From assembly GCA_037974965.1 (NCBI GenBank), contig JBBPFI010000017.1:1-64000 (forward strand): a stretch of DNA of 64,000 nt. The letters run 5' to 3'. A program made the translations under genes and the position numbers. The notes beneath the pieces are model-generated. The model was given only the letters and a program-made list of their open reading frames with translations, had not been told where the DNA came from and did no database searches. Below, piece after piece: positions 861 through 23,485 of this stretch. Positions within the stretch are counted from its first letter, which is position 1. Each line of letters starts with the position of its first letter. This DNA is from Dacryopinax spathularia (Eukaryota; Basidiomycota; Dacrymycetes; Dacrymycetales; Dacrymycetaceae).

Positions 861-1120
861 ATTAGATTAACGGTTTCTTGTCGAAGTACTACCTTCAACA
901 TGATGTACTTCATACTGCTGCTTCAACAGTCAGCATAGCACATGTTCAACCAATGTAGCAGGATACCTTCAGAAGACGTGCTGAAACAATATAGATACAT
1001 GCAGATAAAAAGGTTACCATGAGCTTCAAGTGTACCAAGTGGGGCAGTTCTGAAGCGAGAGTCACCAGTTGATGTGTCGGCTGATAGCATGATTGCCAGT
1101 GCAATTGCCCTGGTTTACTT

Positions 1121-1315
1121 GGTGGGGCCGTTCGCGCCAGAACGCCACCACCACCCCTTGGTGGGGCTGTTCGCGCCAGAACGCCACCACCACCCCTTGG
1201 TGGGGCCGTTCGCGCCAGAACGACACCACCACCCCTTGGTGGGGCCGTTCGCGCCAGAACGACACCACCATCCCTTGGTGGGGCCGTTCGCGCCAGAACG
1301 ACACCACTAAGATGC
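1121..1315. repeat. 39-bp minisatellite, five units (family S)
   Basis: Five head-to-tail units with an exact 39-bp period start near 1121, 1160, 1199, 1238 and 1277. Each contains two small inverted repeats: GTTC/GAAC around GCGCCA, and CCACCA/TGGTGG around CCCC. Because 39 is a multiple of three, the array gives spurious 13-residue repeat ORFs in several frames. The same minisatellite occurs with three units in the other two S copies. Confidence 0.95.
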
Positions 1316-1385
1316 TGGAAGCCACTGTATAAACCCATACATTTATGCAAACCCAACCCGAACCCACTGTAATATACCTATAGAT
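1316..1385 (+). repeat. Conserved 3' tail of family S, ending inside gene B copy 1
   Basis: About 70 bp follow the minisatellite and end in CCTATAGAT at 1385. The same tail ends at 25,112 and at 25,389, and in all three places similarity stops at that point. Directly after it, gene B copy 1 resumes at the base matching 14,191 of copy 2. The tail therefore marks the right end of an S element lodged in gene B. The three bases GAT at the junction are shared by element and target. Confidence 0.8.
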
Positions 1386-4178
1386 GGGGAAGAGTGTGCG
1401 GTGCTCTGCGACTACAACCGGATGAAGGCAGAGTTTCTTGGGAGGGAACGTGGAGGCCAGGGCGCAGCGTTCTATCCGCTCGGCTTCACCAAGGACGCGT
1501 GCAACATCCAGGCAAACACCCTCCCAAGCTTTTTCGCCACCGTCCTCCAGCGCCTGAACCAACGGTATATGGTGCCGAGCGAAAACGAGCAAGGTGAGGA
1601 GATAGCGGGGCCTGACCCGTTTGAGTGCATCAAATGGCAGGGCTACTCGGCACAGAAGAAGGTCTTCCGGAACTCGACAGACGAGCACGAGATCAGTCTT
1701 GGTCAGGAGGCCGCTGCGTTGGGTGTCTGTGGCGTTGGGGGCGGGTTTGAACGCAAGGTGCATGAGATGATCGAGCGTCTCAATCGGCAGTCAAGCTTCG
1801 ACAAGACCGCGACACGCATCCGGCAAGGTGAGGGATCGCTCGGGATCCGCTCGGAGATGGAGCTCGTCATCCACCCAGACAGGCTTGCCCCTGAGCATCG
1901 TAGCGGAAGGTAAATCTCTTCCCTTTCCGCGCACGCATGGTGTGTTAACGGACCGATCTAGCTGGGTGGTCAGCAAGCTCCTCAAGCCGATGACAACGGT
2001 GTATTATTCGGGTCTGCCCTCAGCGCAGTTCCGGGCATCGCTGCTTGTGCTCAGGCCTTCCGTACGCTTCATGCAGCATCCAGCGCAACCTCTGACATGA
2101 CGCACAGGTCTATCCGAACCTGCTTCTGGACGCGGCATGGTTCTGGACGGTCAGAGCGCGCCGTGTGTGGAAGGATGCGATGATGATCACCAACAACGGG
2201 ACACGTCCTTGTCCCTGGTATCTCATCGAGGGCATCGCAATCTGCCTCCGGAACATTGCGCTGGCCCAGACGGGGGACATGCGCACGATCTCAGGGCCTG
2301 TCTACCGTGCTGCGGGCCTGTGGTCTTCGATCCGTGAGAACGGTGTGCCGACCATGCTCAAGTCGTTCTGGGCGGGAGGGCCGCAAGGCCAGCTTGTGCC
2401 CAGCGCATGGCCACGGCCCATTCAGGGCGGGCTCCGTGCATCCGTAGCGGTAAGTGCGATCACGGCACACTTTGGTAAGGAGGCCGGCCTGGCCTATCGT
2501 CGCCGTTTCGAGCTTGAGTGGCGCCTCGACATGCTCGCAGAGCAAGGGAATGGCAGCGGCTCCGCCCTTCGCCAGGCAGCAGCGCAGCAGATCATCGAGG
2601 CGTACCGGCAGGAGATCCAGGAGAACGCCCTTTCAGCTGCAGGCCTGCTTGTGAGCACCAGTCGAATGTCGCTCTGGCGTGCCGGAGAACGCCATGCATT
2701 GGTCAGCCAGGTGATCGACCGACGAGAGCGCGCCATCAACGAATGGAAGGCCGAAGGAATGCCCCTCGATGCCACCAACGGCTATACGTACATCACGCGC
2801 ATGCTCGGCACAGAAGACCTCGTCCCAGCGTTCCCTCTCTCTGTCCAGCGTGCGACCATATCGACAGTGGACCTTGTCGATCTGATGCTGAAGATGGCAC
2901 GGGGGAAGAGGGCGATGGGATCTCCTTTCTTTGGTAAGCGCCGTATGCTCACCCTGTCCGTCCTGCAGACTGCGATCGGGCATTTGACCCGTGGCACGCC
3001 GGCCGAGCTGCACGAGCAAGTGATCGGCTGGTTACGGGAGGCCATGTGCCATGTGCTCAGGGCGTCAAGGCTGAACATTGTCCCTTGGGCTGGTCGGCGC
3101 GGTCTCTGGGCCAGTGCGCTTCACTGGATCCACGTGGTCGATGACAACCCCCGGCAGGCCCGGTCTGGCCGCTATGTGCCTGCGGATGAGGACGAGTACG
3201 TGACGATGCAGATCCAGGCTGAACGCGACCGTGTCAACCCCCGGCCGCATGCCTGGAAAGCTCAGCTCCCGCCAACGCTCTGGTCGATTCCAACCTTCCG
3301 CAGGGACCTGTCCGAGGAGATGAACAACGGCTTTGAAGAGCTCTGCAAGGGCGGGGGGCGTGGGGCGACAGGTGCGCAGTATCGACCGGCATTCGAGCAC
3401 CTCCGTGCGCTCTTCGAGGAGCGGATCGAGACCAACCTGCACCAGTACATCCTATTCTGTGCCACGCTGCTCTGCAAGATCCACCCACGATACCGATACA
3501 TGGCGTCCAACCCAAAGGCACGTCTCAACACGGTCGAGGATGCACGCAACGTGGTGAAGAACATGGTAATGCTGGTGCCAGAGCGTGCCGCAGGGACAAC
3601 CCACGTGGGGATCGTGGCCGCCTCGTTCATCGCCTGGCTGATGTACATGCTCTACGATCAGCAGGAGGAGCTTGCGACACATTGGGGGGTGACAGATGCG
3701 ATGATGAAGACAAAGACCTGTGAGTGTGACTGGATACGGGATGGATGCTCTGCTAATGACCGCAGCGAACCATGCCTTGCATTGGGGTCTGTTCGCATCC
3801 TGGGGCTTCTACACCGTCCTCAGCCCGCACAAGGATATGCTGGGTAAGCGTGGTCCACGCCAGCGCCAAACGAACGGCATCGAATACTGGCGAATGGCCA
3901 AGCATAGCCGGATCGAAGCACTCTGGAGGGAGATCAAGGACTGCTGGGAACGAGGACAGCACAAAGAAGGGCTACGGCATATCTGGTCGGATGCAGACAT
4001 TGCGCACTGGGAAGCTACAGGTATGTTGCAGCGTCCCGCACAGCGCAATACGGGCGCAAGCCCGGACAAGAGGGCGACAGTGCAGCAACGGCATGCCCCG
4101 ATGACGCAGGAGATGTTGCGTAATCTGACACGCAGCATGCACTCGTCCCGGCTCGAGCTGAACCCGCGTGGAGTCTAA
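1386..4178 (+). pseudogene. Gene B copy 1, lacking its 5' part
   Basis: This is a second copy of gene B matching 14,191-16,983 with a constant offset of 12,805, so essentially only substitutions separate the two. It lacks roughly the first 360 codons, which are displaced by the S element ending at 1385. The remaining exons have the same splice sites as copy 2. They encode the central domain (PFECIKWQGYSAQK, EISLGQEAAALG), the long C-terminal domain and the final exon (NHALHWGLFASWGFYTVL). Near-identity over 3.3 kb points to a recent duplication or strong homogenisation. No function is assigned. Confidence 0.75.
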
Positions 4179-4749
4179 GTCGGGAGCGGATAAAGGGAGC
4201 GCAATGAAATAAACGTAGAGGCTGTATATAAAGAAAGGATACCTTGTATTATAATGTATTATATGTATATTACGCTGTAGGCGGCCCAAGGAGGCCTTGG
4301 AAAGAGGCAGAAGACGATACGGTGCAACGGAGATGCAAGAGAGGGGTTACGGGGATGGTGGATGTGCTGCGAGCATTGCAGCGTGCGCCTAACAAATGAC
4401 CTGTGCCAACCCATCACGAGCTTGCAGGCGAGCTCGTGATGGGTCGGGCCGCTTTTTCGCTTAGCACAGCCCCTTCACGAGCTCGCGCGCGAGCTCGTGA
4501 TGGGTTGGCACGCGTTTAAACCCATCACGAGCTCGCGCGCGAGGAGGTGATGGGTTCGTAAGCGTTTTTCCATCACCTCCTCGCGCGCGAGCTCGTGATG
4601 GGTTCAAATGCGTGCCAACCCATCACGAGCTCGCCTGCGGGGAGGTGATGGGTGTTACGGATAGGGAGATAGGGAGGTTTCGGGCCGTATTTTCGGCGTA
4701 CCCTACCCTCAACCCCTATCCGTACTCACCCATAGACCCCTGTAGGATA
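4179..4749. repeat. Palindrome cluster and right end behind gene B copy 1
   Basis: This 571-bp stretch corresponds to 16,984-17,554. It holds five palindromes of about 34 bp between 4408 and 4655. The consensus half-site is CCCATCACGAGCTCGC followed by its reverse complement; some arms carry a GAGGAGGTGATGG variant. Similarity to the other copy stops after CCTGTAGGATA at 4749, which defines the right end of the B unit. No ORF here is convincing. Confidence 0.9.
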
Positions 4750-7647
4750 TGTCGGACCCACTCCCAACAGAAATCGGGACTCTCGCTGTTGTGGGGATGG
4801 AATCGCAGCGATAACCATGATTTCGCTAGGGTCTCCCCTGCGGACAGTCAGCGCGCGCCAAGTTCACACCTCACCATATCAGACCCATAAGCTAAGTTGC
4901 TCCCCTAGTATGCCCCATTACCCATGCCAAGCGGTTTGGCGAGGAAAATTACGGTGGCGGAGATACGGACACAACAAGACTGCAGCGCACCCTGATTCTA
5001 CAAGCGCATGCGCCATGCGACATGCAGCATATTACATGGGGCCCCCAAGTGGTCACACAGTGGCCTAGATATGTCCAACCAACTGGCAACTGAAATCGGG
5101 ACCCTCGGTGCCCTGGGGATGGAATCGCAGCGATAACCATGATTTCGCACGGGTCTCCCCTGCGGACAGTCAGCGTGCACCAAGTTCACACCTCACCATA
5201 TCGGACCCATAGGCTAAGTTGCTCCACTAGTATGCCCCATTACCCGTGCCAAGCGGTTTGGCGAGGAAAATTACGGTGGCGGAGATACGGACACAACAAG
5301 ACTGCAGCGCACCCTGATTCTACAAGCGCATGCGCCATGCGACATGCAGCATATTACATGGGGCCCCCAAGTGGTCACACAGTGGCCTAGATATGTCCAA
5401 CCAACTGGCAACTGAAATCGGGACCCTCGGTGCCCTGGGGATGGAATCGCAGCGATAGCAAACTTGTCGCACGGGTCTCCCCTGCGGACAGTCAGCGTGC
5501 GCCAAGTTCACACCTCACCATATCGGACCCATAGGCTAAGTTGCTCCCCTACTATGTCCCAATGCCTGTGCCAAGCGGTTTGGCTGGGAAAATTACGGTG
5601 GCGGAGATACGGACACAACAAGACTGCAGCGCACGCTGATTTTAAAAGCGCATGCGCCAGGCCACATGCAGCATATTACATTGGGCCCCCAAGTGGTCAC
5701 ACAATGGCCTAGATGTGTCCAACCCGCCCGCAACTGAAATCGGGACCCTCGGTGCCCTGGGGATGGAATCGCAGCGATAGCAAACTTGCCGCAAGGGTCT
5801 CCCCTGCGGACAGTCAGCGCGTGCCCAGTTCACCCCTCACGAAGTCGGTCCCATAAGGTAGGTTGCTCCCCTACTATGCCCGAAGTCCTGTGCCAAGCGG
5901 TTTGGCCCGCAAAACTACGGTGGCGGAGATACGCACACAACAGGATTGCAGCGCACCCTGATTTTTCAAGCGCATGCGCCAGGCCACATTCAGCATGTTA
6001 TACTGTGCTGCCAAGCGGTCCACCAGTGGCCTGGATATGTCCCACCAGCCTGCAACCAAAATCGGGACCCTCGCTGCCCTGGTTATGGAATCGCAGCGCG
6101 CACAAATCTCCCGCAAGGGTCTCCCCTGCGGACAGTCAGTGCGCGCCAAGTTCCCCCCTCACGAAGTCGGTCCCATAAGGTAGGTTGCTCCCCTACCATG
6201 CCCAAATTCCTGTGCCAAGCGGTTTGGCCCGCAAAACTACGGTGGCGGAGATACGGACATCACAAGACTGCAGCGCACCCTGAATCTACAAGTGCATGCG
6301 CCACTCCACATTCAGCATATTATACTGTGCCGCCAAGCGGTCCACCAGTGGCCTGGATATGTCCAACTAGCCTGCAACCAAAATCGGGACCCTGGCTGCC
6401 CTGGTTATGGAATCGCAGCGAACGCAAATCTCCCGCAAGGGTCTCCCCTGCGGACAGTCAGCGCGCGCCAAGTTCCCCCCTCACGAAGTCGGTCCCATAA
6501 GCTAAGCTGCTCCCCTACCATGCCCAAATTCCTGTGCCAAGCGGTTTGGCCAGCAAAACTACGGTGGCGGAGATACGGACATCACAAGACTGCGGCGCAC
6601 CCTGAATCTACAAGTGCATGCGCCACGCCAAATCCAGCATATTATACTGTGCCACCAAGCGGTCCACCAGTGGCCTGGATATGTCCAACCAGCTCGCAAC
6701 TGAAATCGGGACCCTCGCTACCCTGGTTATGGAATCGCAGCGATAGCAGACTTCCCGCAAGGGTCTCCCCTGCGGACAGTCAGCGCGCGCCCAGTTCCCC
6801 CCCCACCATGTCGGTCCCATAAGCTAAGTGGCTCCCCTACAATGCCCAAATGCCTGTGCCAAGCGATTTGGCCCGAAAAACTACGGTGGCTGAGATATGG
6901 GAGCGACAAGACTGCAGCGCACCCTGATTTTGCAAGTGCATGCGCCAGGCCACATCCAGCATATTATACTGTGCCGCCAAGCAGTCCACCAGTGGCCTGG
7001 ATATGTCCAACCAGCTCGCAACAAAAATCGGGACCCTCGCTACCCTGGTTATGGAATCGCAGCGATAGCAAACTTCCCGCAAGGGTCTCGCCTGCGGACA
7101 GTCAGCGCGCGCCAAGTTCACCCCTCACGAAGCCGGTCCCATATGCTAAGTTGCTCCTCTATTATGCCCTGAGCCCGGTGCCAAGTGGTGTGGCCGGGAC
7201 AATCACGGCGGTGGAGATACGGAGACAACAAGACCCCAGCACACGCTGGAAGCACCCGGCTTGTACTTGTGCTTGCACCATGCGAGATGCCCCATGTTAT
7301 ACCATGCCCCGAAGCGGTCCAATGGACCCGGATATATGCAGGAGCAGCTGGCAATTGAAATCGGGACCTTAGATGGCCTGGTTACGGATTCGCAGCGATA
7401 TCGAGCCTTTGCCTATGGTCTGACCTGCGGACAGGCAGCGTGCACCCAGTTCACCCATTACCATCCCGGTCCCATAAGCTAAGTTGCCCGCCTAGTATGC
7501 GTAGACACCCATGCGAAGTGGTGTGTCCAGGAAAATCACGGTCGTGGAGATACGGAGGGAACAAGACTCCAACGCATGTGGGCATGACACGCCTTGTACT
7601 GGTACATGATGATTACAGTGGTGGCGCAAAATAAAGGCACTCCACCC
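4750..7647. repeat. 322-bp satellite array, nine units
   Basis: The landmark GGGTCTCCCCTGCGG recurs at 4829, 5151, 5473, 5795, 6117, 6439, 6761, 7083 and (diverged) 7405, an exact period of 322 bp with no length drift. Nine periods (2,898 bp) fill the gap from the right end of the gene B copy 1 unit to about 7647. The first two units are almost identical; the last, nearest gene A, is clearly diverged. ORFs of 60-184 codons across the array are repeat artefacts because 322 is not a multiple of three. The role of the array is unknown. Confidence 0.95.
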
Positions 7648-7870
7648 ATGCGTGATTAAGGGCAGACGTTCCCGCCGTGGTCTTTACCAGGGATACCCTT
7701 ATATGCATGGGGACCAGATATACAAGAATCGGTGGTTATCCACATGAGTGTTCAAACTAAGTACAAAGCAAAAGCAAGGAGGCATACTGACGTGCCAGTT
7801 GAATGGCATATACAAGCGTTCGCATGTGCCCGTCACACACATGCCCGCGGGAAACTAGCTACTGCACCGT

Positions 7871-10800
7871 TCACTCATCTGTCACCTCCATGTCCTCCGC
7901 CTCGCTCTCATCACTCTCAAAGGGGGCCTTGGTTTGCGGCCCAGCCTGCAAGAGGCTGCGAAGCTCCTCGGAGATCTGCGCATTGGGGCCCAAGATTGCC
8001 ATCATGGCATCCATGGCCGGGCCGCTGAGTGCAGGCTTGCTCACCGGGAAGACGGGTGCTGGCGTGGAGCTTGGTCCTGCAACAGCAGGGCCCGATGCAG
8101 CACTTGCAGTCTGCGAGCGGGTGGCACGCAGCGGGCGCGCCTTAGGCTGCTCATGTGCCGGCTTTTTCGGGATCTGACCCACCTCTTTCAGCTTCTTCTT
8201 CTCCAGCGCCTGCATGCGCTCCAGACGCAGCTTCCTCTTCGCCATATCCATGGCGTCCGCAATGTCCTGCTCGCTGCGCTGCGCTAAGCAAGGCATCAGC
8301 ACTGTCCTCATGCGGTCCAGGCACATGAGACTTACTGGCAGGAGCAGGCGGCAGCGTGGGATCGTTCGCCGGTTGCGACGAGTTCGTACCTGTGATCTCC
8401 ACCTCTCCGTCATCCTCGGAAGCATCCGTGACCGAGTCTATCACCGACGCAGAGCGCACTGGAGTCCTGATCAGCCGAGTGCACAACAGAGTCCATGTCA
8501 AGACATTTACCTTTGCTTCTACCTTTCCCTTTGTTGGTGGCTTTGCCTTTGCCACGCTTGGACGGTGTCCGCTTGGGCGCCGCCGCTTTAGCAGGTGCTG
8601 CGGCTTGCTCAGGCAGTGCAGCCTGAGTGGCAGGGACCGTCGGAGGGGCACTCTGAGCAGCCTGGTCACCCACCAGAGGCGCGGCAGCCACAGCGGAGGT
8701 GCCCGTTCCAGCGGTTGGAGCCGTTGTGGCTGTCGGAGTGGCCCCCGAGGCAGGCGCACCGGCCGCATTCTCCACACCACTCGGATTGAAGAGGGTGAGG
8801 CGTGGGCGAGGCTGAGTCGAAGGCGGGGGAACAACCGGCTCCGTCTCAGGTTCAGACAGGTCGGACGTATCGCTGTCATGCGAGGAGTCATGTTCAGACT
8901 CACCCGCGGCCGTCGTCTTAGGGCGTTTCGCTGCTGGCCGCTGGCCGCTGGGGGATGCGTCATCGGCAGGCGCTATCGAGGTCTCGGAGAGCGTGTGCTT
9001 ATGGCCTGCTTGGCTGGCAGGCGGCACCGGGGCAGCTGTCGTATCAGCAGTCTCACCTTCTGCTGGCTGGTTGGTCGCACGCGCACGGCGGATCGTGCCT
9101 TTCTTCGGCAGTCGCATGGGCGGGAGGGGCCCCTGCGAGGGCGCAGCGGTGGTCTGAGGCGGGCCACGTCGCTCCTTCTCCTTGTCGTCCTCCAACACCG
9201 CTCGCGCAGTATTGAAGGATTGCTTGCGAGCGAGCTGACATGCCCACGTTAGCCCTGCACAAACACTGAGAGACGCACTTACCCTTTGCAGCCCTTTCTC
9301 CAAGTCTTCCCGCCCTACCTCAGGCCATATCTCCAGCAACGAACTCATATGGCCCAAGACCAAGTCTTCGAGCTTCACCGCCTCTGCCTTTACCTTTGCC
9401 TTCTCCTCTGCCCGCAGCGCTGTATCGTCCTCCTCCTCCTCCTCCTCTGCAATCGGCTCGGGAATTGGCTCACCAATCTTCCACTCCTCAGGCACGCTCT
9501 CAAAGACCGTCGGTCGCAGGCCGTGGTTGATGCGATAGAGATGGGTGGCAGCGGCGGCTTGATCTTTCCAGGCCTGATCGATCGAGCGGAGAACACGGCG
9601 CCAGGCGGGATGGTAGTTGAGCTTGCTGAACAAGAACTCGGACCGGAGGGCCACAGGCAGCCAGCGTTTCACACGCTCCCTGAACGTCCGCTTGCTGTTG
9701 TCGTCGGTTTGACCGGGCTTAGGCTTCAGGAGCGGCCAGCCCTCATCGAAGACGGTCTTGAACTTGGCCCAATCGGCAGGCTCGGCAGGCATGACGCGCG
9801 GCGGGTTCCGCAGGAAGTTCTTGCGGCAATACGCCCAGGCATAGTCGATCAGGCTGGTGAGGTGGTCGTTGACGTAGGCCTTCGAGAATGCCTCCACTTG
9901 TTCCGCGTACCGTGCCGTGACGTAAGCCAGCGTGCGCTTCATCTCCTGGAGGTGGTTCCAGGACGAGGGGAGGTACGGGTTCAGCCAGAGCATAAAAGGC
10001 TGCAGGAGGAGGAAATACTCGTCGTCCGTGATGCTGTCGAGCGAGTCCTTGCCAGTCTTCCGCATGACAAGTTGGGCAAGCACGGACTCAATCCGATGCT
10101 CGGCTTGGCTGCCAGGACCGTTGGTGATGTAGAACGGGTTGACGTACTGCCCAAGCTGCGAGAGATGAGTGAGAGCGTCCGTTAGCGAGCCAAAGTTGCA
10201 CGTACCAACTGCAGCACATCATCAAACACCGCAAACTGCATCACGTCGTTGTAGAACGTTGCCGAGGTCAGGATCGCCACCCGAGGGTTTTCCTCCAGAC
10301 GCCCACGCAGCCAGCGCATAAAGGGACGGGCGTGGGCCAGATGCTCCGCAGGGATCTTGTCCTGCGACTCCTTCTCCGCCAACGAGACCTGGCCCAGCCT
10401 GATCACCTCGCCGTTCTCATCCTTCTCATCCTCCATCGGTGCGTCTCCAGCCAGCAGCTTCTCGACCACGTTCACCATCGCGCTCTCCAACTCCTTGGCA
10501 CCGACCGCTTCCTCCTCTTCCTCCTCCTCCTCGCCTTCATTCTCCTCCGTCTGCTTCGCCTTGCCCTTCCCCTTCCGCGAGCGCCTACCGCGCTTAATCG
10601 TAACTACACTAAGCTCTTCTTCTATGGATGCTTGTAACGTAGCTAGAGAAACCAAACCATAACGCCGCGAAATCGCCTCCTGAATAAAGCACCATGCCGC
10701 CACCGGTTCCGAGTAGACCGTGTTCACCTTGGTCGTCTTAGGCTTACCAGTGAGGATAAGCCAATACTGAAGAATACCGTTCGTGATCGCAGTCCACAGG

Positions 10801-11887
10801 TGACGATCGGAGATCTCCGGATAGCCGGTATTGCGTTCGAGGCTCTCTCGAGAGAGCAAGACGTACGTGCGCTTCATCATATACCACCAACCCTATGTCT
10901 ATATCAGCACCGCGGCTCTATTAGAGTCAATGAAAGAACTTACGTCAGCAAAGTGAGAGTCACGTGCACGGACGATCGGGGCCATGGCCATGTCGTGGAA
11001 CTCCGAAATGCTGAAAAGCTGCTGGACGACCTTACGATAGCGCTTGTACTTGAAAGTACGGATGTTGGCCTGATCGTTGCTGAGCTCAACATAGGCCGTC
11101 AAGAGGCGGGACGCTTCGTCAGCCTTCCAATCGACGTTCTCCATGACGGCCATGGCGGAATCCCACAGGTTCTTAGCGCTCGCAGGCTTACCGACATCAC
11201 GGCGATTGCTCGCCAGCTTACGGTAGAGCTCGAGGCCAGGTCCAGATTCTTTCAACGCTGTTGCGCACATCAGTGGGTCAGTCACAGAGGCTGTAGAGGG
11301 CAGTACGTACAAGGCTTGTAGATCTGGACGATCCACCAAGGGACATTGTCGCCATCCCCATTCTCATCCGTCGCAAACAGATGGGCGTACTCGGGGTTGT
11401 GGCGATAACGCTCATAGAGCAGACGCACCGCATGCGTGCGATGCTGTCCAGCAACGACCATTACCTTGGTCATATCGATGAAGATGACCTCGCGCCACGT
11501 GTCGGGTTTCTTAAGGTCAACCTTGTTGCCGGTAATCTCACGGATGTTGGCGATATTGTCGACATCGGTGAGCAAGACGATCGGGTTGGCCGTGCGGCGG
11601 AGTTCGGTGGACATAGAGACCACAAGGGACTCTACGTGCTTCTCGTCAAGAGCGCGACCAAACTGGCGCTCGTACTGAGGCTGAGGTTCGTCGTCAGCCG
11701 GAATGACCCAGCACGCTTCGCCAACCATGAAGCTGGGAAGCATTGCAAAGAGATCCAAGGCCTCCCGCTCACTCTGAGAGGGCGCAAGCGACCTCTGAGA
11801 AGAGACGGTCAGCGACTGAGGCGTACCGGTAGGCGTGCCCTGAGAGGCGACACCGCTTGATTGCTGCGAGTTGGCGTTTGACGACAT
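7871..11887 (-). CDS. Gene A: large protein with ParB/sulfiredoxin-fold domain
   Basis: I read seven exons: 11311-11887, 10944-11257, 10206-10892, 9283-10155, 8511-9234, 8336-8458 and 7871-8283 (3,711 nt, 1,236 aa, open throughout). After a Ser/Gln-rich leader, residues about 64-175 resemble a ParB/Srx fold: a helix like ParB's (ALDEKHVESLVVSM), a strand NPIVLL, then VVAGQHRTHAVRLL at about 144-157. GQHRTHA matches the phosphate-binding G-x-H/E-R-x-x-A motif of ParB and sulfiredoxin. The rest is unrecognised: a helical middle, an acidic run near residue 400 and a Pro/Ala/Lys-rich tail with a basic patch suggesting nuclear location or DNA binding. It is divergently paired with gene B. Nucleotide or DNA binding is inferred from the fold; the biological role is unknown. 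Confidence 0.8.
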
Positions 11888-12945
11888 TGCTGTTTAGGCG
11901 ATATTCAAGAGACAAGATTCTGTGAGAGCGAGAGTCAGTGAATGCATGCGGGAAGAAGAACGTGAGGAAAAAAGAAATGCGGAAGTGCGAAAAATGAGCA
12001 AATACATGCGTTGCAGGCAATACGGCTTGCCGTAGAGCTGCGAACGCATGCAAAACAACAGGTACGCATGCCAGGCATCCGTACGGACCTGCGTACAGGC
12101 CGTAAGGTGCCTGCGGGACGCGTCACAGCGCAATCGCACATGCGAAAAGCAAGAAAATGGCCAAACAAGGCCTGCGAACATGCCTCGCAGGCCTCGCAAG
12201 CCCAAAAAAACGCCGTACAGGCGTCTGCGAGGGGTCCTAATGACTCCCCGATATGCGAAAACTACCTACGGATATACGCTAATAACTATTACTATTAAAA
12301 AGTAACGCGCGTACGCGAAAAGTGAAAAAACGAAAAAAATGCGAACCCATCACGAGCTCGCGCGCGAGCTCGTGATGGTCACGTGACCTCCGGACGCGCC
12401 TTACCTGAGGTGGTGGTAAGGGAGAGAGAGGTGAAGGACCCCTAGAGGAAGAAAACGCGCGTTTAGGACGCGCGTTTGCTTCCGTTAGGGTTCGCACAGC
12501 CTCTCGAACCCATCACGAGCTCGCGCGCGAGCTCGTGATGGGTTCGTTTCGCTTTTTAACCCATCACGAGCTCGCGCGCGAGCTCGTGATGGGTTTTTTC
12601 GTTATTTCGAAAAAGCGAAACGAACCCATCACGAGCTCGCCTGCGAGCAGGTGATGGACGGTTCAATCGGGGGTGTTTAGACCTCCCGTTGTAACCTGTT
12701 ACGGCCTCGTTCGCAAGCTGCGGGGCCGAAAAAGGTCTCATTTCAATTCAATTCATAACTGTACAACTGTGGATTGCTTCCCCGTGGAAGCTTTAATCGT
12801 CCCCCGGACTCCCGGGTCTTCTCTTCTCTTCTCTCTCCCTAACCACCACCATCTCCCGTTAGCTAGCGTAGCAGTTTTAGATAGAGAAATTGAAAAAGCG
12901 GCCCATTCGTACTAACTTTTATTAACAGAAAACCTTTTCAAAAAA
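11888..12945. promoter_or_regulatory. Shared divergent promoter region of genes A and B with palindromes
   Basis: The 1,058 bp between the two start codons must contain both promoters. Four palindromes with half-site CCCATCACGAGCTCGC lie at about 12,346-12,377, 12,508-12,542, 12,558-12,594 and 12,624-12,657. Three have near-perfect arms; the last is an imperfect variant. They match the clusters behind both gene B copies. Gene B starts after an A-rich leader (AAAAAAATGTC), a good fungal start context. I infer that the palindromes are binding sites for an element-encoded protein. No other gene is seen here. Confidence 0.7.
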
Positions 12946-15900
12946 ATGTCAGAACCAGAATCGATCAGGTACGCATTCCCCGTCTTTTCCTGGACGCATA
13001 CGCTAACACGTCTGACAGCGATAGCGATATGCGTCGTGCAGGCCTTCATCGTACCAACTCGTTTGGGAGCGATGTGCCTGACGACGGCCCTTTCGAAATG
13101 CCCATTCATGGCGCAGCAGCCGACTTAGGCGCAGACACGGTCGACGACAATCCTGAAGAACAGGCCAATACCGACTTCTTCAAGGACGCGAGCGGCATCT
13201 CGATCGCCACAACGGTGACGCCCGCATTCCTGCATGAAGGCAGGCGCGCGTCCGAACGCCTGGCAGCAGGCGGCAACGGCATCCACGATGATGTCAATGC
13301 CGACATGTGCTATCTCCCGATCAAGGTGAATCTCCTCGATGACAACGAGCCGGCAGCGTACAAGGTCACAGAGTACGCCACGCTCGACTGGGGGACGCGT
13401 GACCTCTTTCTCGACTCGTTCGGTGCCATCTCTGAAGAGCCTGGCCTTGGCGTCCTTTTCCCCGGCGATACCCACTTCAGCTTCAACGAATATCTCACGC
13501 TTCATGCTGGCCGCTTCACCCGCATGCTCTTCGACAAGCACGAGTTCATCGGCTTCCCATCCCGCCATCTTACCTTCTATCTCGGTGAATCGGAAGGACG
13601 GCACATCTGGCTTGTCTTCCGTGCCAAGCACAGGGAACAGCGTTTGCAAGGCAATCATGACGGCAAGGAACGCTGGATGAGGCGCATGCGCTACTTCCGT
13701 GGCTTCCTCTGCTGGTGCTGTGCCCAGCTGCCAGGCAAGAACATCGTCTCCGAGAGCATGCTGCACTGGGGAGATGAAGATGTGTCCACGCTTGTGTACG
13801 TACCCCTCCGCATGCTTCCCGTATCCCTGAATCGCTCGCTCACCATGGCCGCACAGGCACGGTCACGTCATTCTCTCACCGGATGAGGTGGAAGACCTGC
13901 ACCGGATCATGACAACCAGCTACGAAATCTTCGCAGGCCTTATGCAGCCCCTCGATCCATTCTTTCTCAACCACGAGCCCTTCTCGGTCACCCTCAAGTA
14001 CGGCCAGGACAACCCGATCTCGGAGACCCGCACGGCATGGGACAACTTCAAGAAGAGGTGGGATGCCTTGTACAGGTTTGAGGCCATCGGCCGCTTTGTC
14101 TGTGCGCTCGCCATGGTCCAAAGGTCAGTACGCTCGCTCGCAAAGACATGACGCGCTGAGTCAGTGGCCCACAGAGTGAAAGATGAGGATGGGGAAGAGT
14201 GTGCGGTGCTCTGCGACTACAACCGGATGAAGGCAGAGTTTCTCGGGAGGGAACGTGGAGGCCAGGGTGCTGCGTTCTATCCGCTCGGCTTCACCAAGGA
14301 CGCGTGCAACATCCAGGCGAACACCCTCCCAAGCTTTTTCGCCACCGTCCTCCAGCGCCTGAACCAACGGTATATGGTGCCGAGCGAAAACGAGCAAGGT
14401 GAGGAGATAGCGGGGCCTGACCCGTTTGAGTGCATCAAATGGCAGGGCTACTCGGCACAGAAGAAGGTCTTCCGGAACTCGACAGACGAGCACGAGATCA
14501 GTCTTGGTCAGGAGGCCGCTGCGTTGGGTGTCTGTGGTGTTGGGGGCGGGTTTGAACGCAAGGTGCATGAGATGATCGAGCGTCTCAATCGGCAGTCAAG
14601 CTTCGACAAGACCGCGACACGCATCCGGCAAGGTGAGGGATCGCTCGGGATCCGCTCGGAGATGGAGCTCGTCATCCACCCAGACAGGCTTGCCCCTGAG
14701 CATCGTAGCGGAAGGTAAATCTCTTCCCTTTCCGCGCACGCATGGTGTGTTAACGGACCGATCTAGCTGGGTTGTCAGCAAGCTCCTCAAGCCGATGACA
14801 ACGGTGTATTATTCGGGTCTGCCCTCAGCGCAGTTCCGGGCATCGCTGCTTGTGCTCAGGCCTTCCGTACGCTTCATGCAGCATCCAGCGCAACCTCTGA
14901 CATCACGCACAGGTCTATCCGAACCTGCTTCTGGACGCGGCATGGTTCTGGACGGTGAGAGCGCGCCGTGTGTGGAAGGATGCGATGATGATCACCAACA
15001 ACGGGACACGTCCTTGTCCCTGGTATCTCATCGAGGGCATCGCAATCTGCCTCCGGAACATTGCGCTGGCCCAGACGGGGGACATGCGCACGATCTCAGG
15101 GCCTGTCTACCGTGCTGCGGGCCTGTGGTCTTCGATCCGTGAGAACGGTGTGCCGACCATGCTCAAGTCGTTCTGGGCGGGAGGGCCGCAAGGCCAGCTT
15201 GTGCCCAGCGCATGGCCACGGCCCATTCAGGGCGGGCTCCGTGCATCCGTAGCGGTAAGTGCGATCACGGCACACTTTGGTAAGGAGGCCGGCCTGGCCT
15301 ATCGTCGCCGTTTCGAGCTCGAGTGGCGCCTCGACATGCTCGCAGAGCAAGGGAATGGCAGCGGCTCCGCCCTTCGCCAGGCAGCAGCGCAGCAGATCAT
15401 CGAGGCGTACCGGCAGGAGATCCAGGAGAACGCCCTTTCAGCTGCAGGCCTGCTTGTGAGCACCAGTCGAATGTCGCTCTGGCGTGCCGGAGAACGCCAT
15501 GCATTGGTCAGCCAGGTGATCGACCGACGAGAGCGCGCCATCAACGAATGGAAGGCCGAAGGAATGCCCCTCGATGCCACCAACGGGTATACGTACATCA
15601 CGCGCATGCTCGGCACAGAAGACCTCGTCCCAGCATTCCCTCTCTCTGTCCAGCGTGCGACCATATCGACAGTGGACCTTGTCGATCTGATGCTGAAGAT
15701 GGCACGGGGGAAGAGGGCGATGGGATCTCCTTTCTTTGGTAAGCGCCGTATGCTCACCCTGTCCGTCCTGCAGACTGCGATCGGGCATTTGACCCGTGGC
15801 ACGCCGGCCGAGCTGCATGAGCAAGTGATCGGCTGGTTACGGGACGCCATGTGCCATGTGCTCAGGGCGTCAAGGCTGAACATTGTCCCTTGGGCTGGTC

Positions 15901-16983
15901 GGCGCGGTCTCTGGGCCAGTGCGCTTCACTGGATCCACGTGGTCGATGACAACCCCCGGCAGGCCCGGTCTGGCCGCTATGTGCCTGCGGATGAGGACGA
16001 GTACGTGACGATGCAGATCCAGGCTGAACGCGACCGTGTCAACCCCCGGCCGCATGCCTGGAAAGCTCAGCTCCCGCCAACGCTCTGGTCGATTCCAACC
16101 TTCCGCAGGGACCTGTCCGAGGAGATGAACAACGGCTTTGAAGAGCTCTGCAAGGGCGGGGGGCGTGGGGCGACAGGTGCGCAGTATCGACCGGCATTCG
16201 AGCACCTCCGTGCGCTCTTCGAGGAGCGGATCGAGACCAACCTGCACCAGTACATCCTATTCTGTGCCACGCTGCTCTGCAAGATCCACCCACGATACCG
16301 ATACATGGCGTCCAACCCAAAGGCACGTCTCAACACGGTCGAGGATGCACGCAACGTGGTGAAGAACATGGTAATGCTGGTGCCAGAGCGTGCCGCAGGG
16401 ACAACCCACGTCGGGATCGTGGCCGCCTCGTTCATCGCCTGGCTGATGTACATGCTCTACGATCAGCAGGAGGAGCTTGCGACACATTGGGGGGTGACAG
16501 ATGCGATGATGAAGACAAAGACCTGTGAGTGTGACTGGATACGGGATGGATGCTCTGCTAATGACCGCAGCGAACCATGCCTTGCATTGGGGTCTGTTCG
16601 CATCCTGGGGCTTCTACACCGTCCTCAGCCCACACAAGGATATGCTGGGTAAGCGTGGTCCACGCCAGCGCCAAACGAACGGCATCGAATACTGGCGAAT
16701 GGCCAAGCATAGCCGGATCGAAGCGCTCTGGAGGGAGATCAAGGACTGCTGGGAACGAGGACAGCACAAAGAAGGGCTACGGCATATCTGGTCGGATGCA
16801 GACATTGCACACTGGGAAGCTACAGGTATGTTGCAGCGTCCCGCACAGCGCAATACGGGCGCAAGCCCAGACAAGAGGGCGACAGTGCAGCAACGGCATG
16901 CCCCGATGACGCAGGAGATGTTGCGTAATCTGACACGCAGCATGCACTCGTCCCGGCTCGAGCTGAACCCGCGTGGAGTCTAA
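12946..16983 (+). CDS. Gene B copy 2: intact 1,243-aa protein of unknown function
   Basis: I read seven exons: 12946-12968, 13019-13795, 13857-14123, 14175-14714, 14767-14866, 14913-16524 and 16571-16983 (3,732 nt, open throughout). The N-terminus is acidic. Blocks conserved with B-prime are GLGVLFPGDTHFSFNEY, then TFYLGESEGRHIW, then FSVTLKYGQD. These are followed by PFECIKWQGYSAQK with EISLGQEAAALG, then SWVVSKLLKPMTTVYY, a long helical region, LHQYILFCATLLCKIHP, and last-exon GLFASWGFYTVL. No transposase, helicase, polymerase or protease motif was recognised. Conservation of intron positions and of many aromatic and glycine residues between two clearly diverged intact paralogues suggests a functional protein. 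It is divergent from gene A and flanked on both sides by the same palindromes. It could be the mobility, replication or DNA-binding partner of gene A, but this is inference. Confidence 0.75.
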
Positions 16984-17554
16984 GTCGGGAGCGGATAAAG
17001 GGAGCGCGACAAAATAAACGTAGAGGCTGTATATAAAGAAAGGATACCTTGTATTATAATGTATTATATGTATATTACGCTGTAGGCGGCCCAAGGAGGC
17101 CTTGGAAAGAGGCAGAGGACGATACGGTGCAACGGAGATGCAAGAGAGGGGTTACGGGGATGGTGGATGTGCTGCGAGCATTGCAGCGTGCGCCTAACGA
17201 GTGACGCGTGCCAACCCATCACGAGCTTGCAGGCGAGCTCGTGATGGGTTGGGCCGCTTTTTCGCTTAGCACAGCCCCTTCACGAGCTCGCGCGCGAGCT
17301 CGTGATGGGTTGGCACGCGTTTAAACCCATCACGAGCTCGCGCGCGAGGAGGTGATGGGTTCGTAAGCGTTTTCCCATCACCTCCTCGCGCGCGAGCTCG
17401 TGATGGGTTCAAATGCGTGCCAACCCATCACGAGCTCGCCTGCGGGGAGGTGATGGGTGTTACAGATAGGGAGATAGGGAGGTTTCGGGCCGCATTTTCG
17501 GCGTACCCTACCCTCAACCCCTATCCGTACTCACCCATAGACCCCTGTAGGATA
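16984..17554. repeat. Palindrome cluster and right end behind gene B copy 2
   Basis: This is the counterpart of 4179-4749, with no net length difference. It has five palindromes of about 34 bp between 17,214 and 17,455, followed by a short G/A-rich stretch and an end at CCTGTAGGATA (17,554). Beyond this point the two copies differ completely: satellite on the left, the B-prime start codon on the right. Three separate palindrome clusters (five, four and five copies) argue for a repeated functional site rather than chance. Confidence 0.9.
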
Positions 17555-17560
17555 CAAAGG

Positions 17561-20500
17561 ATGGGCCGTGCGGCGTACGAGTCTGATTCAGACGAAGACA
17601 TAAGCTTTGTGCCCCCGGGGGCAGGCAATGCGGGGTACGCCAAGACCCTTCTGCAGAAAGAGTAACGGGGCTTAACAGGACGCACACAGGCATGGAGAGC
17701 GTGGGTCAGAGTCGATTTCGGACAAGCAGAGCAATACGATAGGGAGCACGGGGTACGCCAAAACACTTCTGCAGACAGAGTAACGTGGCTGAACAGGACG
17801 CACACAGGCATGGAGAGCGTGGGTCAGAGTCGATTTCGGACAAGCAGAGCAATACGATAGGGAGCACTACGAGCGAGTCTGGGTATGCCGAGCATGCCCT
17901 CCCAGAGGCAGGCACTTATATGCTTCACCCATCTGGATAGAAAGGGCCAACCGGGACCCGGGTCTGCGGCGCGCAAGGATATCAGCAGGGTACAGGCACA
18001 GGCAAGCAAGCCCAAGTAAGTCACCGGACTGCCCCGTAAGCGTGAGCTCACAGGCATTCAGCCCACACTGGATTGACCTGCCGCCCTTTCTATCGGATTC
18101 TGAAGGGGAGACGGCCAAGCTGGGGGAAGACAATGAGAAGGAGAGGTGCGTGCTGACAGGGTGTAGCGCAGATGGCACTGATCCTGGGGTCCAGTGCACG
18201 CAGCCCGGCACAAGCAAAGGGCAAGTGGGGAGCGCAGGACGACATCGAGGCCACTCCAATGTACCCAGAGCATCGGTAAGCATGGCCGAATCGCTGCTGT
18301 GCAAGCACTGATTCCATGCATAGCAGGACTCTGATTGGCAGGGAGAGCGAGGGAGAAGAAGACAGCCGTGAGAGCATAGACAATGCCGAGCTTTCGATCA
18401 GTCTGGGCGCCGTCACCCCCCCGCGGTCCATGGCAAGCACAGACAGCCAGGGGGAGAGAGAGCCCTCGTGCGTGCACAGGAGACCACACGGTGACCCACA
18501 CTCATGCAATCCACAGCCCATGGACAGCGCATGCAAATGCCATTGAACAGTCCGACATCGTGGAGCCCATGCTGGCCAACATGAGCATGCATGCGCAGGC
18601 AAACCGTAGAGCCAAGAAGGCAAGGTTGCAAACCAAGTATGGCCCATCCATGATCTGCCGCAAGGATACTTCTGATTGCCAACAGGGCGGACCGCAGTGT
18701 GATCGTGATCAGCGACGATGAGGATCAGCCTGCAACACAGTCCCAACCAAAGGCAAACGCTGCAGGGGCCAAGTAGGTCACGCATGTGGTCGTCCTGCAT
18801 GGTCAAGCTAACAGGCCACAGAGCGAGCGCTGTCATCATCACGCTCAGCGATGACGAGGAGGATGATGACGCATTTTCGGGCAGGGTACCTGGCACAGAG
18901 AACCCGCCAGTCCATGGCGCAGCAGCAAACTTGGGGGACGACATGATTGACGACCATGTGGACCCGCAGCCCAACGTGGATTTCTTCGATCAGATCAAAG
19001 AAAAGAAGAAATCACCTTGGGGAAAGCCCACGGTGATCACACCTCGCGCCCTTGCGGAGATACGCGATGACGAATGGTGGGTAGAGGATGAGCCATGCCA
19101 TCCAATGGAAGCACTCTGCCATTCGCGACTGGTCCTGGAGCTGTATGACAAACAGGAGCCAGCGGCGTTCAGAGTGTCGGAGCACAAGGACCTCACCTGG
19201 GGGCCACGTGAGGTGTACATGGACTCCTTTGGTGCGATTTCTGCGGCACCTGGCCTGGGCGTCCTCTACCCTGGCCCGGTGTGGTTTTCGATGAACGAGT
19301 ATGTCAAGATTCAGGCCAACCAGTTTGCCCGTGTCTTCCGGGACAAGCATCAGTTCATCGGCTTTGACTCGGCACATCGCACCTTCTACTTTGGTGAATC
19401 TGAAGGGCGGTCGATCTGGTTTGTGTTCCGCCCAATCGATGTGACAGAGCGTGGACGCGCCAACAGCGATGGATATGCAACATGGATCATACGCATGCGC
19501 CGCTTTGCTGCATTCCTTTCCTATGTGTTTGCGCACATGCCCAGCAAGAACATCCCCGAGCATAGTCCATGGGCAGACGATGCCAGGACACTGAGCCCTT
19601 TCCTGTGCAGTGTGCTTCCAAAACAGTGGTGCTGCATGGCTGACAATGAGACACAGGAAGGGCCAGCTGAAGCTTTCCGTCGGAGAGGTCCGGCTGTTTG
19701 ATAAGCTGTTTGGGCGCGCTTATCATCAGTGGGCTCAAGAGGCGCCATGGACCGATCCGTTCTTCCTCAGACATCAGGCATTCACCGTGACGCTCAAGTA
19801 CGGCCAGGACACTCCCATCTTGGAGTCAATGGAGGAGTGGGAGCGGATGAAGGACAAATGGGATTCACAGTATGACGTCACCAATATCGGGCGCTTTGTC
19901 TGTGCCATCGCCGTGAACCAAAGGTACGCAGGCCAATGTGGGACGCAGCCAAGCTGACCCTGGGCAGTGTTCGTGATGCCAGCAAGAACGAGTGCAGCGC
20001 GCTGTGCAACTACCAAGTGATGAAGAAACAATTCGGTGCCCGGCAGGGCGGCGGTGATGGTGCTGCCTTCTATCCGCTTGGCTTCACGACAACCGCATGC
20101 AACATCCAGGCGAACGGCCTACCGGCAATGTTCGAGGAAGAACTCATCAAGGCCAACGAGCGCAGTCGGGTGGTCACCGTGGACGAAGAAGGCAACAGGA
20201 AGTACGGGGAGGACCCATTTGAATGCATCAAGTGGCAAGCCTACTCAGCCCAGAAAACCGTGTTCAGAAACTCGGAGAAGGAACATGATATCAGCTTGGG
20301 GCGAGAGGCGGCCGCACTGGGCATGTGTGGGATGGCAGGGAAAGCGATTGGCAAGGTGGCAAGTGAACTCCGAGAGCTCGAGGCCGAATCCAGCTTCCAC
20401 CGCACTCAGCGTCGGATCGAGAGCAAGGAAGGAGGGACAGCAGTGCGTTCCGAGATGGAGCTTGTCATCCACCCTCGCCATCTCAGGAAGGCCCACCGCA

Positions 20501-22906
20501 CCGGAGCGTAAGCAAACATGGCCAAACGCTAGCACAGAGCTGATCAATAGTAGTTACATTGTCAGCAAGCTCTTGAAGCCGATGACCACCGTCTATTGGG
20601 AAGCACTCGGGGAGACCTTCCAATCAACCCTGATCGTGCTGCGTCCAGGAGTGCGTGGACAGGGCATGCTCATCGGGCACAAGCGCTGAGAATGAAACAG
20701 GTCTTCCCACGGCTGTTGATCGATACCGGCTACTCCTGGGCAGTGAAGGCTGAAAGGCTGTGGAGAGACGCCCTGCGCATGGTCGACAGCGGCCGCCGGT
20801 TCTGCCCATGGTACCTGACCGAGGGCATCATGTTCTGTTTGCGTGTGGCGACGTTTGCGCAGACTGGGGATATGCGGCTCATCTCGGGACCAATCTTTCA
20901 GAATGCCGGCATTGTCCAATCGGTCAGGGAGACCGGTTATCCATCGATGCATGATGGCTGGTGGGATGAGAAGGACAGCAGGATCAACCCAGCAGACTGG
21001 CCTCTGCGCCGGAATGGAAGCGTGTTCCCCTCTGTGGCAGCCAGCGCCATCCGAAGCCGCTATGGGAAAGAGGCCGCGGAGCAGTATCTTGTCCGCATCG
21101 AGCTGGAATGGCACCTGGACATGATCAAAATGAGAGGGCAAGCTTCGACGACCCGGCTGCATGCGGCCGCTGCACAACAAATCATCCGTGCCTATCGGCT
21201 GGAGATTCGCGAACGGACGACGGTCGAGGCTGAGGCATTGATCAGGGCAGAGCAGGCAAAAAGGGAGGAGCTGGTTGACCTCTCCCGCCATGCGCAAGCC
21301 GGGACGGTGATTGCCCGACGGGAGAAGGCACTGAAGGCGTGGCTTGAGAAAGAGGCCCCTCTGGATGGCGAGGGTTGGAGTCTGATCAGCGCCATGTTGG
21401 GGAGCAAGGCGCTGCCCCCCGAGTTCCCGTTGTCTCCGCGCGCCGAGCGGGTGGAAAGTGATGTGCTCACATCCAACTTGATTGAGATGGCCACGGGGAG
21501 CAAAAGCCTTGGGGCACCTTTGTTCAGTTCTCGCAGCCAGCTGACACTCTCGCTTATCCAAGCCGCGCTGGCCCACTTGGCAGGCAACGCGCATGAAGAG
21601 ATCCAACTGCAGCACCGACAATGGCTGGCAAAAGCGATGATCAACGAGTTTGCAGCCTCGGGCACAACCATTGTGCCATGGCAGACGACAGGCTCCCGTT
21701 TTGCCTCCGCTAAGGCATGGACGCACGTCACCCAGAGCCGCTCGATGAAGCGAACGAATCCTACAGGGAGGTATATCCCCCAGGATGAGGAAGAACTGCT
21801 GGCGATGAAAACGGCAGAGGCAAGAGAGAAGGCGAATCCAGCTCCAAATGCGTGGAGTGCCAGCCTTGAGCCTGCGCTGACCTCGATCGTGATCCCTAGG
21901 CAGGACATCTCCAAGGAAATGAGTGAGGGATTCAATCTGCTGGCCACCAATCAATCCGGCATAGAGTATAAGGAGGGTTATGGGCATTTGCGCACCCTGT
22001 TTGAAGACAACATCGACCGACCGCTCAACCAGTACATCCTGTTCTGCACCACCATCCTCTGCAAGATCCATCCGTTCCACGTGTGTGTGGCCAGCAAAAA
22101 GACCACGCTGCGCTCGCTTGAGGAGGCGCATGAGGCCATTGCCAACATGATCCTTACGCAGGCTTCCAAAACGGGATCCGGACACGACAAAAAGGGGATG
22201 GCAAACCGTGGCCAAATCGCTGCCTCGTTTATGGCCTGGTTGACGTACAAGTATTACGCGGACAAGAGGATGATGGAAGACCATTGGGGGATAACAGAGG
22301 CCAAGCTCAAGGCCAAGATCGGTGAGCAAAAAGCCAGGATTGTGTGGCGGGCATGAGCCTGATCCTGGACCAGCACATCATGGGCTCTTGTGGGGACTCT
22401 TTGCTTCATGGCATTTCTACACTGTGCTTGCGCCACATGACAACATCACGGGGAACAAGGGGTTTCCAGAGACAAGCCCCAGCGGAACACGGTTCTGGGA
22501 GCTAACGGCAGTAGACAAGGTTGAGACACACTGGGAGAGGGTTAAGGCGTACTGGCAGCGGCAGATGTACAAGGAGGCATTGGGAACGATGTGCTCCCAA
22601 GCGACCCTGCGGATGTGGGAGGAGCGTGGCTGGTTGGAGCAGCCGGCACCAAAAGTGAGCTCCTCCAGGCGGGACGATCGGCCTGTGAGGCCAGAAAGGG
22701 CAGTCATCAATCATGCCGGCGATCTGCGCAAGCTCTGGCGAGGGTTATCGACCCAACGTGTTGAGCTCCACCCTGGACGAGTCGTTGGTCCCAGCTATGT
22801 GGGCCGGTCGGCACAACAGGGAAGCTTGCAACAGAAGCAAGTGTGGGATGACGACACAGCCGATCTGATGCGTGCCCGGAGGGATGATGAGAACGATTTG
22901 TGGTAG
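17561..22906 (+). CDS. Gene B-prime: intact diverged paralogue of gene B
   Basis: The start ATG at 17,561 lies six bases after the right end of the neighbouring B unit. Several short N-terminal exons (17,561 to about 18,770) encode acidic, Ser-rich sequence including SVIVISDDEDQ near 18,695-18,727 and, after an intron, AVIITLSDDEEDDD near 18,828-18,870. From about 18,880 it follows gene B domain by domain: GLGVLYPGPVWFSMNEY, then TFYFGESEGRSIW, then PFECIKWQAYSAQK with DISLGREAAALG. Next come YIVSKLLKPMTTVYW, LNQYILFCTTILCKIHP and GLLWGLFASWHFYTVL. Most splice sites correspond to those of gene B. All core exons are open, ending at 22,906, and the protein is longer than gene B at both ends. 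The exact N-terminal exon structure is uncertain; the core is secure. Function is unknown. Confidence 0.7.
17633..17868 (+). repeat. 118-bp direct tandem duplication in the 5' part of B-prime
   Basis: Two adjacent, nearly identical units start with GGGTACGCC at about 17,633 and 17,751. Each unit contains a putative GT-AG intron and a short Ser/Asp-rich exon (ESISDKQSNTIGST), so the duplication looks like an exon-intron doubling. Confidence 0.75.
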
Positions 22907-23485
22907 CCCACCAAAAGCTATGGATCACAAGGTTCACAAAAGAAATATAGATAAAGACTGCGATTAGAACTAACCAAGAAAGCCCAAAAAAAGAATGGTA
23001 GATACCAAATGTCTCTAGAAAAGCTACAAAAATCCAAAAAAAGAATTGTATATAACCGCGAGCCAGGGGATGCGGTAGCGCCGCACACTGCACAAGCAAC
23101 ACTTTGACAAGATATGACTACCGTCCATAAACAATGCATGCGGTGCCTGCATCCTATCCTATAAACTGAAAGCAAGCGGGAAAAAGCGGTGCACGAAACT
23201 CGCGTGGTGAATACCATGTTACTTCAGGGCTGCCCAGCTGCAAACCGGGTGGTGCGCAGCCACCGTTAGTATACGTCGCGACGCATTCTAACGGTGGCTG
23301 CGCGACATATACTAACGCACAGCCACCGTTAGTATGCGTCGCGACGGATACTAACGGTGGCTGTGCGTTAGTATGAGTACGCGCAGCCACTGGCCCATAG
23401 GGGGCTGAGCGGCTGTGGCAAATGTCGTCAGGGTCCAGACCTAGCCCTAACCCTGGCCTGAACCCAGCCTCAAAGGGGTATAGAT
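22907..23485. repeat. 3' region of B-prime with a second type of palindrome
   Basis: The first 300 bp hold no recognisable gene. Between about 23,250 and 23,395 there are arms of CAGCCACCGTTAGTAT and its reverse complement around a TCGCGACG centre, in roughly two palindromes plus partial arms. The sequence is unrelated to the CCCATCACGAG palindrome of gene B but holds the same position behind the gene. A C-rich stretch then leads to GGGGTATAGAT at 23,485. That resembles the TATAGAT end of family S and the GTAGGATA end of family B, so it is probably the right end of the B-prime unit. Confidence 0.7.

Follow-up and report, generated by a model that had tools for sequence, protein, structure and literature searches.

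The 64,000-nucleotide stretch analysed here (the window) comprises positions 1 to 64,000 of contig JBBPFI010000017.1 (hereafter C17) from the fungus Dacryopinax spathularia (assembly GCA_037974965.1). It forms the left end of a chromosome-end contig in a genome of 29.2 Mb and 24 contigs, several ends of which carry TTAGGG telomere repeats among the matches listed. Close to this end lie two very large divergent genes, A and B, accompanied by a satellite array and two clusters of palindromes. With high confidence, we judge the A-B family to be a mobile element that is attached to chromosome ends.

Gene A (7871..11887, minus strand) and gene B (12946..16983, plus strand) each consist of seven predicted exons and would encode proteins of 1236 and 1239 amino acids, respectively. 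These models were made from the sequence alone by placing GT-AG introns by eye, and the predicted introns are 46-64 bp in length. The A protein carries the sequence GQHRTHA in its N-terminal part and is of low complexity in its C-terminal part, and the B protein is without a recognisable domain. A palindrome cluster of the CCCATCACGAGCTCGCGCGCGAGCTCGTGATGGG type is located between the two genes (12343..12657), and a second cluster of the same type (17213..17458) lies near a fixed terminus, ACCCCTGTAGGA|T (17541..17553, plus strand), that reads A|TCCTACAGGGGT on the minus strand. Five perfect palindromes with arms of at least 12 nucleotides are present in the window, whereas five mononucleotide shuffles gave 0 on average. 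Tandem Repeats Finder delineates 8.8 copies of a 322-bp satellite (4745..7576), and satellite of the same kind, up to 86% identical to that of the window, adjoins telomere repeats on contig C22.

An earlier note on this DNA had described the satellite, the two large open and spliced genes and both palindrome clusters, all of which we recover, and had treated them as one unit starting at 4750. A true left end at 4750 is unsupported: the boundary at 4749/4750 is the right end of another copy of B, which abuts the satellite array there. Gene B indeed recurs nearby, as that note had also stated. Copy 1 (1384..4748, plus strand) is 99.1% identical to copy 2 (14188-17554) and has the same right end; on its telomere side it is cut within exon 4 and joined to the fixed end of a further lineage, C. 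The paralogue B2 (18718..22906, plus strand) has seven predicted exons, with introns 1 and 2 being uncertain, and a predicted product of 1295 amino acids that is 44% identical to B in alignment.

Distribution and orientation of B-family copies

A genome search with exon 6 of gene B yielded at least 50 matches (50 being the number of candidates scored), which merge into 41 pieces at 26 contig ends. The 5′ side of B points toward the nearest contig end in 38 of the 41 pieces as computed, and in 39 once contig C22 is read from its telomere; because C22 starts with telomere repeats at its left, its piece is correctly oriented. These genome-wide matches rule out the idea that A and B are ordinary single-copy host genes, and nothing resembling a single-copy conserved locus free of palindromes and repeats was seen within this genome. 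As a side observation, the right end of contig C3 (C3:2576000-2613975) resembles an inverted duplication around 2595700, with mirrored B and reverse transcriptase (RT) matches, and may be a fold-back or an assembly artefact.

The same arrangement is evident when gene B is left out of consideration. The terminal 13-mer ACCCCTNTAGGAT, searched genome-wide, occurs at 30 sites, against 0 for the reversed pattern used as a control and approximately 3 expected from base composition. Its orientation is as expected in 29 of the 30 (p 2.9e-8; two sites on C10 were placed by contig order). For the 28 sites on contigs of known length, 26 are no more than 37 kb from an end, and the remaining two are at 134 kb on C6.

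The A-B unit itself is found, approximately 98-99% identical, on three different flanks (C17, C1 and C6), and the ends of B-lineage copies share one terminal nucleotide at 20 flanks, so that mobility, as proposed earlier, is supported. Among the 16 B-lineage copies that were examined on their left side, only three contain gene A: it is whole on C17 and shortened on C1, where telomere repeats follow the cut at the equivalent of window position 8853, and on C6, where the cut corresponds to 10265. A and B have moved together onto these three flanks, and most of the examined copies are without A. Moved copies retain both their introns, which lie inside unbroken matches of 97.7-99.2% identity, and the oppositely oriented gene A. 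On C1, the reading frame of B is open through 1239 codons, with exons as in the window.

A single fixed terminus and its joining rule

When 20 B-lineage copies are aligned, 20 different flanks begin after one common terminal nucleotide. The shared terminus is ...CCTGTAGGAT, and all 20 ends read GGA|T. The note had placed a sharp right end at CCTGTAGGATA; the end is sharp and common to the copies, and the final A of that sequence belongs to the flank, most of the 20 copies diverging past GGAT. No poly(A) is found at the fixed end among these 20 aligned copies.

Four other lineages have comparable termini. In the direction outward from the chromosome, lineage B has A|TCCTACAGGGGT, B2 has A|TCTATACCCC, C has A|TCTATAGGTA, D has A|TCTAGGTATG and E has A|TCATCAGGAA, and all fixed ends of these five lineages start with 5′-TC directly after a host A. 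Junctions are testable where the uncut target is present in the window or at another locus, and at 13 of 13 such junctions, drawn from all five lineages (lineage E seen once), the uncut target is A^T. Twelve of these junctions were printed directly, and for the thirteenth, where the satellite is joined, neighbouring satellite units were compared by eye. Given that A precedes T with a frequency of 0.26, the chance of 13 out of 13 is 0.26^13, or 2.6e-8. As judged from the letters at these junctions, the fixed end follows the 5′-end rule of Helitrons, in which 5′-TC is joined to a host A at an AT target.

Immediately interior to their TC ends, B, B2 and C carry G-rich, telomere-like runs (such as GGGTTAGGG in B2 and GGGTTCGGGTTGGG in C; window 17492-17553, 23424-23485 and 1323-1385, minus strand), noted without a control, which are oriented as the telomeric G strand.

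The telomere side of the copies

The opposite side of the elements was examined in 16 of the 23 B-lineage copies, and it is variable. Five copies meet telomere repeats (on C1, inside gene A; on C5L, C7R and C14R; and on C21, where a short internal telomere tract lies between B and a C-lineage element), nine meet the end of another element, and two are joined to a family that we call F. The nine element ends are four of lineage B (the satellite joint at 4749, two copies on C3 that have one truncation point in common, and one on C9), two of C, two of D and one of E, which is known from this single joint. None of the 16 telomere sides shows a joint to recognised chromosome-internal DNA, with families F and E being unclassified sequence. 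Since the telomere side meets either TTAGGG repeats or another element in the copies examined, the elements stack head to tail, with the 5′ side of B facing the telomere and the centromere-side terminus fixed to the nucleotide.

A closed, two-ended unit with target duplications is not supported. Only one end is fixed, and the other consists of telomere repeats or of the end of another element in the copies examined, so that no duplication of the target site would be expected. No second end, equivalent to the right-hand (3′) end of Helitrons, was seen in the 16 copies examined, although the CTRR motif was not scanned for.

Two observations concern the partners at these joints. Family F ends with ...GCGGCGGTT, and this end is attached to host AGG at two distinct positions within A and B (L045:468-3201 and L046:3243-3301). 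In lineage D, the sequence behind the fixed end is another chromosome-end satellite, arrayed in repeats of approximately 161 bp (L048:1-2841, L047 and L044:8866-10000).

The window illustrates the stacking well. Its first feature is the 3′ part of a C-lineage element (1..1384, plus strand) that includes a piece of a B-family protein (5-334 matches B exon 6, E 1.6e-9) and ends with 39-bp imperfect palindromic repeats followed by the fixed end ...ACCTATAGA|T. After B copy 1, the satellite and the A-B unit comes the flank of the B2 element (17554..18717, plus strand), which contains a 118-bp repeat in two copies and is cut at 17554, where the uncut sequence on C22 reads GCA^TACAAAGG. Gene B2 is followed by palindromes of the CCGTTAGTATACGTCGCGACGCATTCTAACGG type (23247..23383) and by the B2 fixed end GGGGTATAGA|T (23475..23485, plus strand), at which matching also stops in two further B2 copies (position 23485). 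This end abuts a cut C-lineage element (23484..25392, plus strand), whose uncut form reads GAGCA^TGTTGATC and which is the innermost piece recognised in the window. Its 23806-25034 segment is 96.7% identical to window 1-1229, and the C fixed end seen at 1384 appears in it twice more (25112 and 25390). Genes of fungal type (DUF3292, EF3/New1-like and UDP-glycosyltransferase) occupy the remainder of the window.

Characteristics of the A and B proteins

In ten copies of B exon 6 that are near-full, one of which (on C6) holds a stop, we counted 38 synonymous and 28 non-synonymous variants, 44 of these 66 being G>A or C>T. At 0.58, the synonymous fraction exceeds the 0.33 expected (standard deviation 0.06), and none of 2000 simulations reached as high a value. 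By these counts, exon 6 of gene B is under purifying selection. Aligned family members are 31-56% identical to B, with the values for two partial members being approximate.

The absence of any recognised transposase, RT or capsid in A or B, which had been remarked on previously, persists after Pfam, PDB and motif searches. The full A and B proteins have no Pfam match to RepHel or RT at E values up to 10, a result that covers the element as far as the satellite, and no Pfam match in either corresponds to a tyrosine recombinase of the Crypton or Starship kind. A B-family profile has no match among PDB sequences, and [YF]xDD is absent from B, B2 and two partial family proteins. When viral contigs were scanned with the B-family alignment, 86 stretches fitted the pattern and none was confirmed. 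An AlphaFold model of B exon 6 was unusable (predicted local distance difference test, pLDDT, of 42), as was that of the N-terminal exon of A (pLDDT 37.5).

For gene A, the best profile match is DndB with an E value of 0.16, below the DndB cut-off; a four-member A profile gave no PDB match, and its members scanned singly gave no ParB match. We nonetheless take the GQHRTHA sequence (GxxRxxA) to be ParB/sulfiredoxin-like, an assumption for which these searches gave DndB at E 0.16 at best. Counterparts of the motif occur in three A-like genes on C22 (GAHRLAA, GVQRYHA and GVKRIKA). The order on this contig from the telomere (C22:1-25400, L053-L056) is telomere repeats, satellite, three minus-strand A-like genes and B2, and this region resembles a larger module of the same kind as A-B. 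A-like gene 1 matches A with an E value of 4e-26 at approximately 30% identity and gene 2 with 7e-7. Gene 3 was not matched to A by tblastn at E 0.01; called by eye on the basis of its motif and position, it is 25% identical to A when aligned.

Palindromes of the B2 type are located upstream of each of the three C22 A-like genes, and the B lineage has its own type on either side of B. In these two cases (B and B2), then, each B lineage has a palindrome type of its own, which suggests that the palindromes may be binding sites for an element protein.

A proposed route of movement

Considering these characteristics together, we propose with moderate confidence, at about even chances, that the A-B module belongs, as one of several lineages, to a family of mobile elements of chromosome ends that have a single functional terminus and move by Helitron-like run-off. 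A nick at the 5′-TC end would begin strand displacement, which, for want of a used right-hand terminator, would run to the end of the donor chromosome. The displaced strand would extend 5′ to 3′ toward the telomere and have the TTAGGG strand as its 3′ end, and hence the new arm would arrive capped. Its 5′-TC end would be attached to the A of an AT site located in a different subtelomere, the recipient chromosome beyond that site would be lost, and the incoming arm would bring its own telomere. Telomere-side truncations could arise when the displaced strand breaks and is healed by telomerase, or through later erosion. The palindromes are probably lineage-specific binding sites of A, which is ParB-like by motif, and/or of B.

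This estimate covers two sub-cases, between which it is split roughly evenly: either B acts as the nuclease, or A-B is cargo for RepHel. The most specific form of the first, in which B and a ParB-like A constitute new end-replacing machinery, a family unrelated to RepHel and RT that would make its own 5′-TC nick, run off and join the arm with its telomere at an AT site, is a tentative proposal that we regard as rather doubtful. The earlier expectation that any mechanism would be new is weakened in so far as the fixed end follows the Helitron 5′ rule; neither RepHel nor RT was found in A or B.

Several observations weigh against Helitron-like run-off. A G precedes the site in 8 of the 13 targets, and A^T might also be explained by 2-4 nucleotides of AT/GAT microhomology in end joining. 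The family F ends, at two of the 16 telomere sides, break the TC/AT rule, and the C-lineage piece beyond the telomere tract on C21 ends early (at the equivalent of window 1015) and not by its fixed end. Two pieces face the wrong way, one on C16 and one on C3, the latter mirroring another C3 piece. Less terminal locations are also known, with B being 132 kb from the contig end on C6 and B2 being 48 kb from it on C2. Neither HUH nor Walker A motifs are found in A, B, B2 or the two partial family proteins, so that the element has no demonstrated rolling-circle enzyme. Two Helitron pairs of this genome seem to start T|TCCTGG, not A|TC. Finally, the joining step and the loss of the distal arm are inferred from one genome rather than directly observed.

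Alternative explanations

The strongest alternative overlaps with the run-off proposal, of which it is a sub-case: A-B may be the non-autonomous cargo of ordinary Helitrons, whose RepHel would act in trans on the TC end while A and B do something else. We consider this possible, though well short of even chances. There are 45 Helitron Rep matches in the genome, many of them in frames of approximately 2000 codons (for example, L057-L066), which makes trans-mobilization possible, and some of these Helitrons look recently active, since the members of two pairs that we compared are 99.9-100% identical over 2-2.8 kb. The TC/AT rule is as this explanation would have it, and the Helraiser element functions without its right end, according to the portion of the report cited here (PMC4778049). 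Against it, B and the lineage-matched palindromes recur, and B exon 6 is under selection. The listed Rep matches are scattered along contigs, whereas the B pieces are near contig ends. Moreover, the Helitron starts in the two pairs tested look like T|TC and are not the same site as the telomeric fixed ends; a second group of Rep matches showed no element start at the loci compared. As for simple membership of the Helitrons, the lack of RepHel in A or B argues against it.

A second explanation is passive traffic among subtelomeres, in which ordinary genes are spread by break-induced replication, unequal exchange, microhomology end joining and telomere healing. The truncation point shared by the two C3 copies of B looks like the product of tandem duplication, the C3 end appears inverted and duplicated, and cut copies are capped by telomere repeats on C1, C5, C7 and C14, all of which would suit such traffic. 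However, one terminal nucleotide against 20 flanks, together with A^T at every testable junction, needs a sequence-specific step, and the TC start is common to lineages whose proteins are only 31-56% identical to B. We therefore judge passive traffic to be unlikely.

Least probable, in our view, is a telomeric retroelement like HeT-A, MoTeR or Penelope-like elements, in which RNA is copied from its 3′ end onto a chromosome end that lies exposed, so that the 3′ end is fixed, the 5′ side is truncated and the copies form head-to-tail arrays. The gross architecture is alike (one orientation at chromosome ends and variable telomere-side truncation), joints have a short AT/GAT overlap and Penelope-like elements can keep introns. 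Against a spliced-RNA route stand the retained introns, the antisense gene A within the unit, a fixed end that lacks poly(A), and the failure to reveal an RT by Pfam in A or B (E up to 10), by PDB search with the B-family profile, or by the [YF]xDD motif in B, B2 and two partial family proteins. The TC/AT rule also speaks against a retroelement.

An RT-bearing partner at the telomeres was also considered. A genome search with RVT_1 gave 57 matches that are dispersed or on mitochondrial-looking contigs, with a few in the C3 and C16 subtelomeres, and none of the 57 is at the coordinates of the listed B-family pieces. Contigs C19, C23 and C24 have RT matches with in-frame TGA, which suggests that they are mitochondrial contigs rich in intron-encoded proteins.

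Comparison with known systems

To our knowledge, the well-studied selfish elements on chromosome ends are retroelements. HeT-A/TART, MoTeR and FoTeR are non-LTR (long terminal repeat) retrotransposons that reside at chromosome ends, where they are stacked and truncated. The elements described here are alike in place, stacking and truncation, and differ in that no RT is found, introns are kept and an antisense gene lies inside.

The subtelomeric RecQ-like helicase genes of fungi (PMC7473861) also form large families with complete and truncated copies. In contrast, B lacks both a helicase match in Pfam and a Walker A motif, and the portion of that report cited here mentions no shared exact terminus at AT for the RecQ-like genes.

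For Helraiser, a 5′-TC/host-A joint at an AT target is canonical, the left end is essential and the right end is dispensable, its hairpin's removal leading to more truncation and read-through, as stated in the cited part of the report (PMC4778049). Common to Helitrons and the present elements are the joint of 5′-TC to host A at AT and a palindrome near an end. Unlike in the account given there, RepHel was not found in A or B and a right end was not seen for the elements described here, whose copies are near chromosome ends and whose palindromes are situated close to the TC end as well as between the genes.

A search of open-licence literature, by title and abstract opening, found among the items listed no report of a one-ended DNA element at chromosome ends that lacks RepHel. 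The closest precedent is the set of telomeric Helitron-like elements of the nematode Oscheius tipulae, where large Helitron-like sequences occupy 11 of 12 subtelomeric extensions, with one more match elsewhere, and are distinct from the dispersed Helitrons of that genome (PMC8022731). The likeness, as far as the cited portion of that report goes, is in the subtelomeric place. The O. tipulae elements hold nuclease and Pif1 helicase domains, whereas no Rep or helicase was found in A or B, and one-ended AT joints with telomere-side truncation are not described in that portion (PMC8022731). Our findings hint at a little-known, and possibly new, way of replacing chromosome ends. If the proposal is correct, an apparently DNA-based, one-ended element that uses the Helitron joining rule, stacks on chromosome ends and could bring its own telomere would offer a second way in which subtelomeres are built and spread, with a bearing on how the nematode telomeric Helitron-like elements are viewed.

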